24,441 nt of DNA, taken from the IMG/VR virus record IMGVR_UViG_3300008261_000432, positions 1-24,441 of that record. One strand, given 5' to 3'. Source of the DNA: a virus. Below the pieces are notes generated by a model. The model ran no database searches, was not told the origin of the DNA, and saw nothing but the letters and a program-made list of their open reading frames with translations. Each line of letters opens with the position of its first letter. The stretch's first letter is position 1. Shown here in pieces: positions 4,471 through 24,441 of this stretch. Both the position numbers and the translations under genes were made by a program.

Positions 4471-5094
4471 ATGGAACTAACTAAAGAACAACTAAAACAA
4501 CTTTTACCGAAGAATCCGCATCTTGATTATTGGTATAATGCATTAGAACAATTGCTACCAGAGTATGAGATTGATACACCACAGAGAATTGCAGCATTTG
4601 TCGCTCAGTGTGCCCATGAGTCTGGTGGTTTTATGGTACTCAAAGAAAATTTAAACTATCGTCCTGTTACATTACGTAAAATATTTCCAAAGTATTTCAC
4701 TGATGATGCCATTGCAAACCATTACTGTTCACTACCAAACAAACAAGAAGCCATTGCCAATCGTGTCTATGCCAATCGTATGGGCAATGGCGATGAGGCC
4801 TCTGGTGATGGGTACAGATATTGTGGTCGTGGTCTGATTCAATTGACAGGCAAAAACAACTACAGAGCATTTGCAGATTCATTAGAGATTACACCAGAAG
4901 AAGTATCTGAGTATTTGGCCACATTTGAAGGTGCCGCACAATCTGCATGTTGGTTTTGGGAATCAAACAATCTTAACCAATGGGCAGATAAAGGTGACAT
5001 TCTCACATTGACAAAACGAATTAACGGTGGTACCATTGGACTTGAGGACCGTATTAAACATTATGAACACGCCTTACACGTATTAGGAGTTTAA
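4471..5094 (+). CDS. Endolysin, glycoside hydrolase family 19 (chitinase-like)
   Basis: The 207-residue protein is a GH19 domain from end to end. AAFVAQCAHESGGF carries the catalytic acid Glu50; DEASGDGYRYCGRGLIQLTG (108-127) carries Glu109 and the substrate-groove motif; the C-terminal half has TLTKRINGG. GH19 enzymes cleave beta-1,4 glycosidic bonds; phage members act as muramidases on peptidoglycan. No signal peptide is present, so it should need a holin to leave the cytoplasm, and a candidate holin follows 2 nt downstream. RBS AGG just before the ATG at suitable distance. The role in lysis is strongly supported by fold motifs and neighbours. Confidence 0.92.
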   Translation: MELTKEQLKQLLPKNPHLDYWYNALEQLLPEYEIDTPQRIAAFVAQCAHESGGFMVLKENLNYRPVTLRKIFPKYFTDDAIANHYCSLPNKQEAIANRVYANRMGNGDEASGDGYRYCGRGLIQLTGKNNYRAFADSLEITPEEVSEYLATFEGAAQSACWFWESNNLNQWADKGDILTLTKRINGGTIGLEDRIKHYEHALHVLGV

Positions 5095-5095
5095 T

Positions 5096-5626
5096 ATGGC
5101 AAAAGAAACTAAAGTAGAAAAGAAAAAAGACGAAGACTGGATGACCAAGAAGTGGCGTCCAATGATGGCAATGATGTATATGACATGTTGTTTATTTGAC
5201 TTTGCTTTGTTCCCAATTATGTTTACGATTGTACAGTTTTGGGAAGTACAGGCAGCCAATGACGCATTCCGTCAATGGGTTCCAATCACACTACAAGGCG
5301 GTGGTTTGTTTCACGTTGCCATGGGTGCCGTATTAGGTGTGTCAGCATATGGTCGTACACAAGAGAAAGTAGCAGGTGCATCAAATGTCTCAACCGGTCT
5401 ACCATCAGGCGGAGTTACAACACCTACGTTATCTTCAACAACACCAACGTTCAACGGCGGTGGTTTTGGTTCACCAACACCAACATCATTCTCCCAACCA
5501 ACACCATCATTTGGTGGAGGGTACAATCCAGGTGCATCAACAGATTACAGTCAACAACCAATTTCGGTGACAGTAGGTTTCGGTGGTAAAGCTGCGCCAC
5601 CTGCCGCACCACAACCATTAATTTAA
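5096..5626 (+). CDS. Candidate holin (multi-TM, GTA_holin_3TM-like)
   Basis: A charged N-terminus (MAKETKVEKKKDEDW) leads to KKWRPMMAMMYMTCCLFDF, a signature I associate with three-TM phage holins. Membrane segments lie at about 22-48 and 70-85. The C-terminal half (about 90-176) is a low-complexity Gly/Pro/Thr/Ser-rich tail, which is unusual for a holin and could be a periplasmic or cytoplasmic linker. AGGAG lies 6 nt before the ATG. Directly following the endolysin, it is the best holin candidate in the window: it would oligomerise in the inner membrane and release the endolysin. Confidence 0.72.
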   Translation: MAKETKVEKKKDEDWMTKKWRPMMAMMYMTCCLFDFALFPIMFTIVQFWEVQAANDAFRQWVPITLQGGGLFHVAMGAVLGVSAYGRTQEKVAGASNVSTGLPSGGVTTPTLSSTTPTFNGGGFGSPTPTSFSQPTPSFGGGYNPGASTDYSQQPISVTVGFGGKAAPPAAPQPLI

Positions 5627-5635
5627 AGGAATGAT

Positions 5636-5857
5636 ATGAAAAACCTTGCATGGAAATTGCTCTTACCGTTAGTTGTTTGTTTTACTGTTGGTTTATCGAC
5701 AGCTTATGCTGAGGCACAAATAAAAGAAGTGTGTCGAGATAAAACAGGTAAAGACGGCAAACCAATAACTGGTAAAGATGGCAAAGTTGTACAAGAATGT
5801 AAAAAAATCAAAGTACACAAAAAACTAGAAGGCACAGAAGTTCCTGTGAAAAAATAA
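5636..5857 (+). CDS. Small secreted lysine-rich protein with TGKDGK repeats
   Basis: A classical Sec signal peptide (residues 1-25, ending in an A-Y-A-E cleavage context) is followed by a very basic mature part of about 48 residues. The mature part contains TGKDGKPI and TGKDGKVV as tandem repeats between two Cys (EVCRDK, QECKKI), which could form a disulfide loop. AAGGA precedes the ATG. Function unknown; a periplasmic or envelope-binding role is likely from the signal and charge. It lies between candidate holin and coiled-coil membrane protein. Confidence 0.6.
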   Translation: MKNLAWKLLLPLVVCFTVGLSTAYAEAQIKEVCRDKTGKDGKPITGKDGKVVQECKKIKVHKKLEGTEVPVKK

Positions 5858-6163
5858 ATGGCAACTACGACAGAACGGCTTGGTATTGTTGAAACCAAAG
5901 TTGAGAATCTAAATGAAAAATTAGATGGGTTAAAAGAAGACGTTAAAGAAATGCATGATTGCCTTGATAAAACAAGGGAAAGCTTGACAAACAAGCTGGA
6001 TGAGATGTATGGTGCTTCTTGCAATCAACATAAATCTTTAGCTGATGAAATTAATGCATTGAAAACTCAAAGAGACAAATGGTTGTGGACTGCCGCTGGC
6101 GCAATTGCCGTTATGGGTTGGGTGTCTGGTCATACGGAAACAATAATGAAAATCATTGGTTAG
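5858..6163 (+). CDS. Coiled-coil protein with C-terminal membrane anchor (XhlA-like layout)
   Basis: The ATG follows the previous stop directly. Residues 1-45 form an amphipathic coiled coil (RLGIVETKVENLNEKL, then repeated Lys/Glu heptads), and residues about 74-95 a single membrane helix (WLWTAAGAIAVMGWV). The overall plan of coiled coil plus tail anchor is that of haemolysin XhlA-like proteins that accompany phage holins, but sequence similarity is not proven. As the last gene of the lysis block it may modulate the holin. Confidence 0.6.
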   Translation: MATTTERLGIVETKVENLNEKLDGLKEDVKEMHDCLDKTRESLTNKLDEMYGASCNQHKSLADEINALKTQRDKWLWTAAGAIAVMGWVSGHTETIMKIIG

Positions 6164-6165
6164 TC

Positions 6166-6194
6166 TTGACAAACACTTGAGGTTGTGTTATATT
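6166..6194 (+). promoter_or_regulatory. Strong sigma70-type promoter for the replication block
   Basis: TTGACA (6166-6171), 17-bp spacer, TATATT (6189-6194). The expected start, about 7 nt after the -10, falls at 6201, one base before the primase ATG at 6202, so the transcript would be leaderless or nearly so. It marks the switch from the lysis block to the replication block. Confidence 0.75.
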
Positions 6195-6201
6195 ATGGTC
6201 T

Positions 6202-7233
6202 ATGACAATATCGACCGACTCAAAATATATCAAATTAGTATCTTCACGTTTGCGTAATTTCAAACAGAAAGATTCTTACCTATGGAATTTCTCTTGCCCA
6301 ATTTGTGGTGATAGTCAAAAGAACAAAAGCAAAGCTCGAGGGTACGTGTACCAAAAAGGCAATGGTTTGTTCTATCGTTGCCACAATTGCAGTGTGGGTA
6401 CAAATCTAGGCAATCTTATCAAGAACCTAGATGACTCTTTGTATAAAGAGTATGTGATGGAGAATTATAAAAGTGGTGAGACTGGTGTGCAAAACAGACC
6501 AGTTTCATTCATTGATATACCACCTCCACGATTTGGTAAACTACAAAAAGAAACCTCATTTACTGAGGCAGAAGTTTGCAGTAAACTACCTGAAGGTCAT
6601 TTTTGTTTGACCTATCTACAGAACCGTATGGTACCAAAAGAATCATACAATAGATTATTTTTCACACAACACTACAAAAGATTTTTAGATGCCTTGATTC
6701 CAGATCACGGCAAAAAAGTGGTCGATGATGCACGGCTTGTAATTCCATTCTATGACGAGTATAATGACCTTATTGGTGTGTCTGGACGTGCATTGGAGAC
6801 TTCAGATAACAAATTACGTTATGTGACATTGAAGATTAAAGAAGATACAGATAAGATGGTATTTGGCCTCGATAGAGTTGACTTAAGTAAACCTGTTAGA
6901 ATGGTTGAGGGACCTCTTGATTCAATGTTCCTAAGTAACTGTCTGGCATCAGGTGATTCGTCATTGCATCAATCGGTAAAAAATATCAAGGCAAATAATA
7001 TTACCTTGATATATGACAATGAACCACGTAATAAAGAAATTACGAAGTTGATGCAAGAAGCGATAGCGTTAGGTCATAATGTCGTCATTTGGCCTGATAC
7101 TGTTGAAGGTAAAGATATTAATGAGATGGTATTGAATGGTTTATCGCCTGATGAAATTGAAGATATTATAAGTAATAACACATTCAAAGGCATAAAGGCA
7201 CAAACTGAATTTATTTTTTGGAAGAAAGTATGA
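6202..7233 (+). CDS. 61: DNA primase, T4 gp61-like
   Basis: At 343 residues it matches T4 gp61 (342). An N-terminal zinc ribbon has Cys32, Cys35, Cys60 and Cys63 with the flanking KARGYVYQKGN seen in gp61. The central toprim region carries Glu236 (MVEGPLDSMF) and Asp272 in IYDNEPRN, and GKDINEM near 303 completes the motif set. The enzyme makes RNA primers for lagging-strand synthesis, in T4 together with the gp41 helicase (not in this window). No Shine-Dalgarno is visible because the promoter start is at the ATG. The next gene overlaps by ATGA. Confidence 0.93.
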   Translation: MTISTDSKYIKLVSSRLRNFKQKDSYLWNFSCPICGDSQKNKSKARGYVYQKGNGLFYRCHNCSVGTNLGNLIKNLDDSLYKEYVMENYKSGETGVQNRPVSFIDIPPPRFGKLQKETSFTEAEVCSKLPEGHFCLTYLQNRMVPKESYNRLFFTQHYKRFLDALIPDHGKKVVDDARLVIPFYDEYNDLIGVSGRALETSDNKLRYVTLKIKEDTDKMVFGLDRVDLSKPVRMVEGPLDSMFLSNCLASGDSSLHQSVKNIKANNITLIYDNEPRNKEITKLMQEAIALGHNVVIWPDTVEGKDINEMVLNGLSPDEIEDIISNNTFKGIKAQTEFIFWKKV

Positions 7234-7916
7234 GTATGAAAGTTGAGTTGATTAGTTATTCGCAGCCTGAGTCACATTTCGCAGAGAATATGACTGAATT
7301 GGTTGCGTTTTGTGCGAGGGTATCAAACCCTGCAAACCAAGACAATAAAGAAACAAGTGAGAAGTTGATTCGTTATTTGGTTAAACACCAACATTGGTCA
7401 CCACTTGAGATGGTGAGTATGTGTTTGGAACTTACAACGACACGTGACATTGCACGACAAATCTTGCGTCATCGTAGTTTTAGTTTTCAGGAGTTTAGTC
7501 AACGTTATGCTGATCCTACAGCTGAACTTGATGAGGCATTTGTGTTGCGTGAGGCAAGATTGCAAGACACAAAGAATCGACAGAACAGTGTAGAATTAGA
7601 TATGAATGATGAGGCACAGAAGTTATTGGCATTTGAATGGGAACGTGCTCAGAAACGAGTATTGTTTTCAGTCAAACAAGAATACTCTTGGGCTATTAAG
7701 AATGGTATTGCCAAAGAACAGGCACGTGCGGTATTGCCAGAAGGCCTTACTGTAAGTCGCCTCTACATGAACGGCACATTGCGTTCGTGGATTCACTACA
7801 TACAACTCCGTTCAGCAAACGGTACACAAAAAGAACACAGAGACATTGCGATTGAATGCGCTAAAGTAATTGCCAAAGTATTTCCGATGGCAAATGAGTT
7901 TAAAGAACAAAAATAA
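7230..7916 (+). CDS. thyX: FAD-dependent thymidylate synthase ThyX
   Basis: The protein (228 residues from ATG 7230) contains the ThyX signature RHRSFSFQEFSQRY: Arg80, His81, Arg82 and Ser90 fit RHR-x7-S. Residues TQKEHRDIA (199-207) provide the second FAD/dUMP-binding motif (QxExR), and ARAVLPEG precedes it. ThyX converts dUMP to dTMP with methylene-tetrahydrofolate and FAD/NADPH. ATG 7230 overlaps the primase stop and has GGAAG 6 nt upstream; ATG 7236 is a possible alternative. T4 itself uses a ThyA-type enzyme; ThyX is common in T4-like marine phages. It is followed by ribonucleotide reductase genes. Confidence 0.95.
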   Translation: MSMKVELISYSQPESHFAENMTELVAFCARVSNPANQDNKETSEKLIRYLVKHQHWSPLEMVSMCLELTTTRDIARQILRHRSFSFQEFSQRYADPTAELDEAFVLREARLQDTKNRQNSVELDMNDEAQKLLAFEWERAQKRVLFSVKQEYSWAIKNGIAKEQARAVLPEGLTVSRLYMNGTLRSWIHYIQLRSANGTQKEHRDIAIECAKVIAKVFPMANEFKEQK

Positions 7917-23332: not shown

Positions 23333-23437
23333 ATGTTACATTCATTAAGACACGGCGAGTATACGGAACAGTCCACAGTATGTGGCTGGATTAGCTCACG
23401 CCCAGCATTAATGGATAATAGGCTAGGGGTTTTGTAA
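23333..23437 (+). CDS. Possible 34-residue peptide
   Basis: The frame reads MLHSLRHGEYTEQ, then VCGWISSRPALMDNRLGVL. The second half looks like a short ordered motif, and a strong terminator follows 28 nt later, which supports expression. There is no clear ribosome site. Low confidence. Confidence 0.3.
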   Translation: MLHSLRHGEYTEQSTVCGWISSRPALMDNRLGVL

Positions 23438-23464
23438 AAGTTTAAATTAAAAGTTTACCGCAAC

Positions 23465-23497
23465 AAAACCCCAAACCTAAAAAGTTTGGGGTTTTTT
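23465..23497 (+). terminator. Strong intrinsic terminator
   Basis: AAAACCCCAAAC (23465-23476) pairs perfectly with GTTTGGGGTTTT (23484-23495) over a 7-nt loop, with six T at the end. It separates the small-gene array and metallophosphoesterase from the tRNA cluster. A second hairpin, GTGTTGT/ACAACAC (23503-23509/23516-23522), follows. Confidence 0.93.
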
Positions 23498-23528: not shown

Positions 23529-23556
23529 TTGCCAAAATATGTGGTTGTGTTACAAT
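23529..23556 (+). promoter_or_regulatory. Promoter of the tRNA cluster
   Basis: TTGCCA (23529-23534), 16 bp, TACAAT (23551-23556), the same geometry as promoters A and B. Start expected near 23563, 30 nt before the boxB hairpin. Confidence 0.65.
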
Positions 23557-23592
23557 TCATGTATGGATTGAGAAATCAATCAAAAAAAGATT

Positions 23593-23627
23593 CATTCGTA
23601 TTTACGAGTGATGAATGCTCTTTAACA
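23593..23627 (+). promoter_or_regulatory. nut-like boxB/boxA antitermination element
   Basis: CATTCGT (23593-23599) pairs with ACGAGTG (23604-23610, one G-U) over a 4-nt loop; TGCTCTTTAACA (23616-23627) follows. The latter equals the core boxA of E. coli rRNA leaders, and the boxB-then-boxA order is that of rRNA operons. In rRNA, NusB/NusE bind boxA and prevent premature termination. The tRNA cluster starts 18 nt later. Confidence 0.78.
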
Positions 23628-23644
23628 ATATAAATTTTGGTTTT

Positions 23645-23720
23645 GCTCGGTTCGTCTATCGGTTTAGGACGCTGCCCTTTCAAGGCGGAAAGATGGGTTC
23701 GATTCCCGTACCGAGTACCA
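23645..23720 (+). tRNA. tRNA-Glu (UUC)
   Basis: 76 nt with encoded CCA. Acceptor GCTCGGT pairs with ACCGAGT (one G-U), D arm GTCT/AGGAC-type, anticodon stem CTGCC/GGCGG with loop CTTTCAA (anticodon TTC at 23679-23681), T arm ATGGG/CCCGT. It reads GAA (and GAG), the preferred Glu codons of this A-rich genome. It is the first tRNA after the boxA element. Confidence 0.94.
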
Positions 23721-23922
23721 TAATAAAATTTATTGCGTTGACAAGTCCATTAGGGGACTATACCAAATAACGGGACGGCGGTCTCCGGTTTAGGTATACT
23801 CATGATAGCCGCTACGATGGTGATGGGTAGCTTGTACGTAATGACCACACACAGCGCAGGATCGCAGCCTGTGAAAAGTAGGTGTGAATGGTTCGCAGTA
23901 AATTTTATTATGGTAATATTGT

Positions 23923-24000
23923 TGGGGATTAGCTTAGTCTGGCCTAAAGCAGCGGACTTTGACTCCGTTATCACTGGTTCGAATCCAGTATCCTCTGCCA
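23923..24000 (+). tRNA. tRNA-Gln (UUG)
   Basis: 78 nt ending in CCA. Acceptor TGGGGAT pairs with ATCCTCT except the first U-U pair, D stem GCTT/AAGC, anticodon loop CTTTGAC (TTG), stem CGGA/TCCG, T arm ACTGG/CCAGT. The weak 1-72 pair is reminiscent of other tRNA-Gln, whose 1-72 pair is U-A and weak. The 200-nt stretch before it (23721-23922) holds no supported gene. Confidence 0.92.
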
Positions 24001-24017: not shown

Positions 24018-24149
24018 ATGAAACGAAAATCAATCGCCAAGGAACGTAACTGCTTCGTTCGTTTGGCTTTATTCCGTAAAGCAGGTGCTCACCGCAAGTC
24101 CAATAAGGCATTGCGTAAAGCACAAAACCAAGTACCTGTGGAGGTATAA
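24018..24149 (+). CDS. 43-residue basic protein inside the tRNA cluster
   Basis: AAAGGA precedes the ATG. The product MKRKSIAKERNCFVRLALFR continues KAGAHRKSNKALRKAQ, with about one third Lys/Arg, so it likely binds RNA or DNA. I recall similar short basic proteins (xxFVxxAxFRKAGxHRKSxKALRR) from phages of beta- and gammaproteobacteria. Its last three codons lie within tRNA-Lys: the stop TAA (24147-24149) covers positions 8-10 of that tRNA. Confidence 0.65.
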   Translation: MKRKSIAKERNCFVRLALFRKAGAHRKSNKALRKAQNQVPVEV

Positions 24150-24214
24150 CTTAACGGTTAAAGTAACTGGCTTTTAACCAGTAAATCAGAGTTCGATTCT
24201 CTGTGCCTCTACCA
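24140..24214 (+). tRNA. tRNA-Lys (UUU)
   Basis: 75 nt with CCA. Acceptor GGAGGTA/TGCCTCT (two G-U pairs), D stem ACTT/AAGT, anticodon stem ACTGG/CCAGT with loop CTTTTAA (TTT), T arm CAGAG/CTCTG. The 5' ten bases overlap the coding end of the basic protein at 24018. Its CCA tail takes part in the following long stem. Confidence 0.94.
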
Positions 24215-24310
24215 TATAAAAGCACATTATTAGTGACGTATGAGCAGGTCATTAACTTCCGCTGGTTACGCCAATAGTAAGTAAGTGAAGGATAGTGTGC
24301 TTCTATATGG
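24212..24310 (+). ncRNA. Structured RNA element between tRNA-Lys and tRNA-His
   Basis: CCATATA (24212-24218) and AAGCACATTAT (24220-24230) pair with ATAGTGTGCTT (24292-24302) and TATATGG (24304-24310): about 18 pairs with one A-C mismatch and one G-U. Inner pairs include TGAC/GTCA and CTTC/GAAG. T4 also carries stable non-tRNA species (C and D RNAs) within its tRNA cluster. It could be a processing site or such a stable RNA. Confidence 0.55.
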
Positions 24311-24316
24311 TATTAT

Positions 24317-24392
24317 GCAGTTGTTAGTGTAACGGTTAACACCACGGATTGTGATTCCGTTAATATGGGTTCGATTCCCATACTTCTGCCCA
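24317..24392 (+). tRNA. tRNA-His (GUG) with weak acceptor stem
   Basis: 76 nt counting G-1 to CCA. G-1:C73 is present, as His tRNA identity requires. The acceptor CAGTTGT against ACTTCTG has two adjacent U-U mismatches at 4-69 and 5-68. D stem GTGT/ACAC, anticodon stem ACGGA/TCCGT with loop TTGTGAT (GTG), T arm ATGGG/CCCAT. Confidence 0.9.
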
Positions 24393-24441
24393 ATGGGTTG
24401 GGATATTTCAATTGGTAAGAACCGAGGATGTATAAGCCACG

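Follow-up and report, generated by a model that had tools for sequence, protein, structure and literature searches.

A candidate rRNA-type boxA antitermination leader in front of phage tRNA arrays

We identified a short segment in the virus record IMGVR_UViG_3300008261_000432 that, judged from its sequence, is probably (we put this at about 0.8) a compact rRNA-type antitermination leader for a phage tRNA array. Many phages seem to use the host boxA machinery to make their tRNAs, because about 100 other phage tRNA blocks share the layout. A single 12-mer is unremarkable on its own; what goes beyond chance is its recurrence at a fixed spacing before phage tRNA arrays.

A promoter, a hairpin and boxA precede the tRNAs

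The window (the whole stretch of DNA that was analysed), a linear virus fragment of 24,441 bases from IMG/VR, encodes a ribonucleotide reductase, a thymidylate synthase, a DNA primase, PhoH and a metallophosphoesterase. For the two window proteins tried, the matches to named phages are all below 60% amino-acid identity, and BLAST of the window region, near and distant, shows similarity to named phages at the tRNA level only. The terminator, the leader elements and the tRNAs, spacer RNAs and open reading frame of the array all lie on the plus strand.

An intrinsic terminator (23465..23495; 12-bp stem, 7-nt loop and T-rich tail) separates the metallophosphoesterase gene from the tRNA unit. Downstream is a sigma70-type promoter (TTGCCA-16-TACAAT, 23529..23556), which matches the consensus at 10 of 12 positions, has an extended -10 (TG) and is the best promoter-like match of the region. 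From the consensus promoter, transcription is predicted to start at about 23563. A boxB-like hairpin with a GNRA tetraloop (GAUUGA-GAAA-UCAAUC, or GATTGA-GAAA-TCAATC as DNA) follows at 23566..23581, and a second, lineage-specific hairpin (UCAUUCGU-AUUU-ACGAGUGA, or TCATTCGT-ATTT-ACGAGTGA as DNA) at 23592..23611; the folding z-score of the two hairpins is -2.0. Unlike in most relatives, the second hairpin sits between the boxB-like hairpin and boxA, with a gap of 4 nt to the latter. The boxA, TGCTCTTTAACA (23616..23627), has the exact rrn form, is followed by AATATA, is present as a single exact copy across the window and fits the boxA consensus GYTCTTTAANA (PMC5725501). The sequence-only reading had placed an rrn boxA behind a boxB-like hairpin and a sigma70-type promoter within 23529-23627, and all of these elements are found there. 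Their order, which it had likened to that of rRNA operons (promoter, boxB-like hairpin, boxA), agrees with the Enterobacterales rRNA leaders that we read.

Reading of 23628-23660 showed no boxC, a TGTGTGG-type sequence that would lie some 18-19 nt past boxA, and the site is therefore not a full rrn leader. We do not count boxC among the defining elements for activity, because the rrn boxA is reported to be both necessary and sufficient for the complex to form (PMC10250234).

In the window, the distance from boxA to the start of the first tRNA, tRNA-Glu(TTC) (23645..23720), is 29 nt. The array continues with a helix-closed structured RNA in the tRNA-Glu/tRNA-Gln spacer (23716..23915; 22-bp closing helix, 95% complementary), tRNA-Gln(TTG) (23923..24000), a basic 43-aa open reading frame without a PHROGs family (MKRKSIAKERNCFVRLALFRKAGAHRKSNKALRKAQNQVPVEV, 24018..24149), tRNA-Lys(TTT) (24140..24214), another helix-closed structured RNA in the tRNA-Lys/tRNA-His spacer (24210..24312) and tRNA-His(GTG) (24318..24392), and runs on past the window end. 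The stop region of the open reading frame extends 10 nt into the start of tRNA-Lys. After tRNA-His, positions 24394-24441 look like the first part of a tRNA-like element that the window end truncates; in the related locus L080, similar sequence is located between tRNA-His and tRNA-Asp, without an ARAGORN call.

Upstream of the leader, a hairpin formed by 23419-23435 and 23463-23479 competes with the terminator stem (23465-23495). The two hairpins are mutually exclusive, so that 23419-23495, which lies between the metallophosphoesterase gene and the tRNA promoter, is arranged like an attenuator.

The layout recurs at a fixed spacing before phage tRNAs

We scanned 2.9 million viral contigs for a boxA word spaced from a T-arm motif as if a tRNA starts shortly downstream, and judged the presence of a tRNA directly downstream with ARAGORN. 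With TGCTCTTTAACA, a tRNA follows directly in 24 of the 120 matches listed, the window being one of the 24, versus none with the reversed core (0/42) or a dinucleotide-preserving shuffle (0/35; 0/77 together). A stricter T-arm motif combined with TGCTCTTTAACA returned 21 loci; 20 were already classed as tRNA leaders and the other, L286, also has a tRNA. For GTTCTTTAANA, a second natural boxA form, a tRNA comes after 94 of the 124 matches listed versus 2 of 34 in the control, and the distance to the tRNA is most often 26-28 nt among these matches. Some of the short-spaced GTTCTTTAANA matches (16-18 nt) that lack a promoter may be chance. Collapsed at 80% identity, the leaders amount to at least 104 non-redundant ones, with a spacing peak at 26-29 nt from core start to tRNA start among the matches listed. 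Eleven loci, again among the matches listed, have more than one boxA leader (e.g., L432, L438, L506 and L538).

The promoter played no part in the leader search and was scored in the 85 nt upstream. Among the matches listed, the sigma70 score is at least 10/12 in 77 of 104 leaders and perfect in 24, versus 3.7% of shuffles reaching 10 or more. Hairpins were called between the -10 and boxA when the stem had at least 4.5 weighted pairs and a GNRA cap. Such hairpins are present in 24 of the 59 leaders with enough room (among the matches listed), compared to 0.2 expected from shuffles; their loop is usually GAAA and they mostly lie 2-4 nt before boxA. Nineteen distinct 16-mer hairpins, one of them from a T7-like phage, align gap-free, and in 27 cells both sides have changed. 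Stem covariation is 0.625 versus 0.277 shuffled and at most 0.133 slid, a value that is partly selected since the hairpins were picked by stem strength, so that the enrichment over shuffles is the safer statistic. Outside the searched word, positions +11 (A in 90%) and +13 (T in 82%) are conserved, as in rrn TGCTCTTTAACAATTTA, and A/T-rich linkers join boxA to the tRNA. The leader often has just 20-30 nt ahead of boxA. The shortest leaders (L014, L021 and L286) have no space for a hairpin, and boxB is thus common, not universal.

The three main phage boxA variants are the same as three sequences active elsewhere, those of rrn, suhB and a Legionella CRISPR array. One form equals the E. coli rrn GCTCTTTAACA in the rrn leaders read; another equals the E. 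coli suhB GTTCTTTAACA, a sequence that we saw directly and a boxA that is functional (PMC5725501). The commonest variant is identical to the boxA of the L. pneumophila Lens CRISPR array, GTTCTTTAAAA, a boxA that increased array RNA about 10-fold (PMC7862264, citing Stringer et al. 2020). Searches for GTTCTTTAAAA as the rRNA boxA of another proteobacterial group, which used one presumed pattern and a guessed 16S spacing in a sample where draft genomes often miss rRNA operons, found none. The proposal that the site is of the rRNA type, not the lambda type, and serves a tRNA cluster gains strong support from the roughly 100 non-redundant leaders found when other phage tRNA clusters are searched for boxA, with their promoters, covarying hairpins and experimentally active boxA variants.

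Conservation in close relatives

Relatives were fetched via the neighbouring metallophosphoesterase protein, independently of boxA. The expectation that close relatives keep boxA holds in part: it is at the same spot in L354 (CGCTCTTTAACA; 99% protein identity), L080 (TGCTCTTTAACA) and L357/L358 (TGTTCTTTAACA), but L355/L356 have the degenerate CGCTCATTAACA there (the L355 variant is also written CGCUCAUUAACA). With its altered core base, L355 is a genuine exception to the conservation. The boxB-like hairpin is identical across five distinct relative sequences. In the second hairpin, two pairs show compensatory changes and one pair is broken in two of the five relatives. More distant members (L402, L414 and L432) have GTTCTTTAAAA 29-30 nt before tRNA-Gln.

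Distribution among phages and hosts

In loci fetched by other routes, the boxA consensus is found in 3 of 24 arrays of at least three tRNAs, versus about 0.01 expected from the background rate, and at 1 of 198 internal tRNAs. In the clusters of T4, T5 and the KVP40-like Vibrio phage PVA8, the first tRNA is not preceded by the boxA consensus. Given that most arrays, including these three, are without boxA, it is not required for phage tRNAs generally; the boxA leader is widespread, yet a minority of arrays use it. In host genomes, TGCTCTTTAACA at the same spacing before a T-arm motif is detected in none of 198 genomes at the order level and none of 369 at the class level, suggesting that the leader is not a copied host tRNA operon.

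Megablast of two further loci (L151 and L184) gives tRNA-sized matches to named relatives at most. Short BLAST searches with hairpin-boxA queries return T7-like, SP6-like and T5-like protein-coding leaders and no named tRNA array, and four further hits that were fetched have no tRNA array. We read the boxA in the T7-like, SP6-like and T5-like leaders (CGCTGAGTAATCAGC and TTTGCTCTTTAACA in the T7-like one).

Boxes of this kind are also seen away from tRNAs. Sequences resembling boxA lie 5' of the T5-like A2-A1 genes in L293 (Salmonella phage STWB21, at 1514) and L556 (Vibrio phage VPG01, at 17-38), which suggests, by analogy with T7, that T5-like phages may use boxA in pre-early transcription. 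Many viral contigs from bacterial genomes have an exact rRNA-type boxA followed by conserved sequence, with no tRNA or rRNA nearby (e.g., L002, L003, L008, L028, L042 and L063; L009, L015, L024 and L032). These possibly reflect N-independent antitermination in prophages.

Helix-closed RNAs in the spacers

Long helices that start within the CCA end of the upstream tRNA often close the spacers between tRNAs. With helix closure called at a 1% chance threshold, 27 of 60 first spacers in boxA-led arrays are closed, versus 19 of 161 later ones (p 3.5e-7). Both spacer RNAs of the window fold far better than shuffles (z of -4.6 for Glu-Gln and -5.2 for Lys-His), and Rfam finds tRNAs only, with no family for the spacer RNAs. 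The Lys-His RNA is part of a set of 39 sequences, from loci that include the window, L491, L111, L148, L408 and L453, in which a closing helix of about 19 bp (CCATAT..AA..CATT / AGTGTGTTTC.ATATGG) is kept around unrelated inserts of 30-110 nt. Some of these inserts hold a T-arm-like GGTTCGA, and the RNA may be related to stable, tRNA-like RNAs that have been annotated in T5. Other helix-closed RNA families are larger (150-240 nt) and are common to different phages at different array positions (Glu-His in L127 and Ile-Tyr in L286; Glu-Cys in L129, Glu-Leu in L037, Glu-Tyr in L190 and Ser-Ser in L108).

A speculative and rather unlikely generalization is that many phages carry an rRNA-operon-like small-RNA module, made of a strong promoter, a GNRA boxB, boxA, tRNAs and helix-closed, partly tRNA-like RNAs, with Nus-dependent folding or RNase III processing of the helix-closed RNAs. 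If so, one host machine would both protect and mature the whole array.

Proposed function and alternatives

Phage tRNA arrays are common, and we know of no explanation for how such long untranslated transcripts escape Rho. The boxA leader is a directly testable answer, and would link the supply of phage tRNAs with the host's rRNA factors NusB and SuhB. Its most likely role would be to recruit host NusB/NusE-SuhB, so that the polymerase is not stopped in long untranslated RNA. The host sigma70 polymerase would start at the promoter (23529-23556), and the nascent RNA would expose the boxB-like GNRA hairpin and then boxA, where host NusB-NusE(S10) would bind. Together with NusA, NusG and SuhB, NusB-NusE would turn the polymerase Rho-resistant and processive, and this polymerase would transcribe the long untranslated tRNAs and structured spacers that Rho would otherwise terminate.

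A complex of NusA, NusB, NusE, NusG and SuhB delays both Rho-dependent and intrinsic termination in vitro (PMC6614801). In the relative L354, the array comprises 21-22 tRNAs, and its tRNA-filled 4919-7415 (about 2.5 kb), with little coding room, is a natural Rho target. The elements of the leader, their spacing, recurrence and covariation are observed directly in the sequences. The activity of these boxA forms comes from the work of others in other contexts, and from it, together with the little coding room of L354, we infer loading of the Nus complex by the leader during infection and, with it, full transcription of the array.

RNA folding has been reported or proposed as the main role of Nus factors at rRNA (PMC5725501), and 'antitermination' may therefore not be the whole function. 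It is possible, if on the unlikely side, that the Nus complex mainly folds and processes the RNA here instead of blocking termination, holding the leader near the exit channel and assisting the formation of the long inter-tRNA closing helices for RNase III. The excess of helix-closed RNAs among first spacers when boxA leads the array (27/60 vs 19/161, p 3.5e-7), the folding of the window copies (z -4.6 and -5.2) and the discussion of the delivery of 5' regions in PMC6614801 are all consistent with such a role. However, the leader lacks boxC, which is the pairing partner in rRNA, and the closing helices start after the first tRNA, outside the leader; folding is also compatible with antitermination, not exclusive of it.

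The leader might instead be a decoy: a strong phage promoter would yield abundant boxA RNA, and this RNA would titrate NusB/NusE/SuhB from host rRNA operons. Near-consensus strong promoters and short leaders would suit this function, but it needs neither a fixed distance before the tRNAs nor a repeat ahead of the second unit within an array (more than one leader is seen in eleven loci), and we consider it improbable. We see equally little prospect for a look-alike of boxA, an AU-rich element with a processing or promoter role in the maturation of tRNA 5' ends: the A/T-rich linkers between boxA and tRNA could serve RNase E, but the exact match to three experimentally active boxA variants with an rrn-like extension and the composition-matched controls (0/77) argue against it. 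For the window alone, the 12-mer is weak evidence against a short A/T-rich word arising by chance in A/T-rich phage DNA, and the four matches at two mismatches in the window equal the chance expectation. Chance is nevertheless hardly credible given the controls, the spacing peak and the enrichment of promoters and hairpins, and, for the window copy, its retention at the equivalent position in L080, L354 and L357; for the class, we rejected it on the scrambled controls. An antitermination leader for the tRNA array is the reading that we prefer.

Comparison with known boxA systems

In E. coli rrn, boxB, boxA and boxC lie after P2 (PMC10250234). The phage leader resembles the rrn leader (rrnTAC signal) in its promoter-hairpin-boxA order and in its identical boxA core, but it drives a tRNA array, has a clean GNRA tetraloop and lacks boxC. 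The lambda nut site likewise combines boxA with a GNRA-type hairpin and Nus factors, the loop of lambda boxB being of the GNRA type. However, lambda has boxA and then boxB and needs the phage N protein, whereas here the hairpin comes first, and ten open reading frames scanned against PHROGs gave no N protein; with this reversed order, a lambda-type nut site was rejected. The role of boxB in the rRNA system has been termed puzzling (PMC10250234), and the natural boxB-boxA pairs with covarying GNRA hairpins are material for finding out what it does.

Early transcription of phage T7 involves an N-independent boxA (PMC3709561, citing Savalia 2010). Like the T7 boxA, the leaders described here would be phage antitermination elements without N, but the T7 boxA precedes protein-coding early genes and these leaders precede tRNAs. 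Searches of open-licence full texts turned up no description of boxA on phage tRNA arrays. What appears to be new is boxA before phage tRNA arrays; phage boxA without N (T7) and boxA on a CRISPR array were already known. As in the CRISPR array of L. pneumophila Lens, boxA leads a long non-coding array, but here it is phage-encoded, located before tRNAs and part of a compact unit with a promoter and a boxB-like hairpin. Phage tRNA arrays would join the natural targets of boxA, alongside rRNA, CRISPR arrays and suhB.
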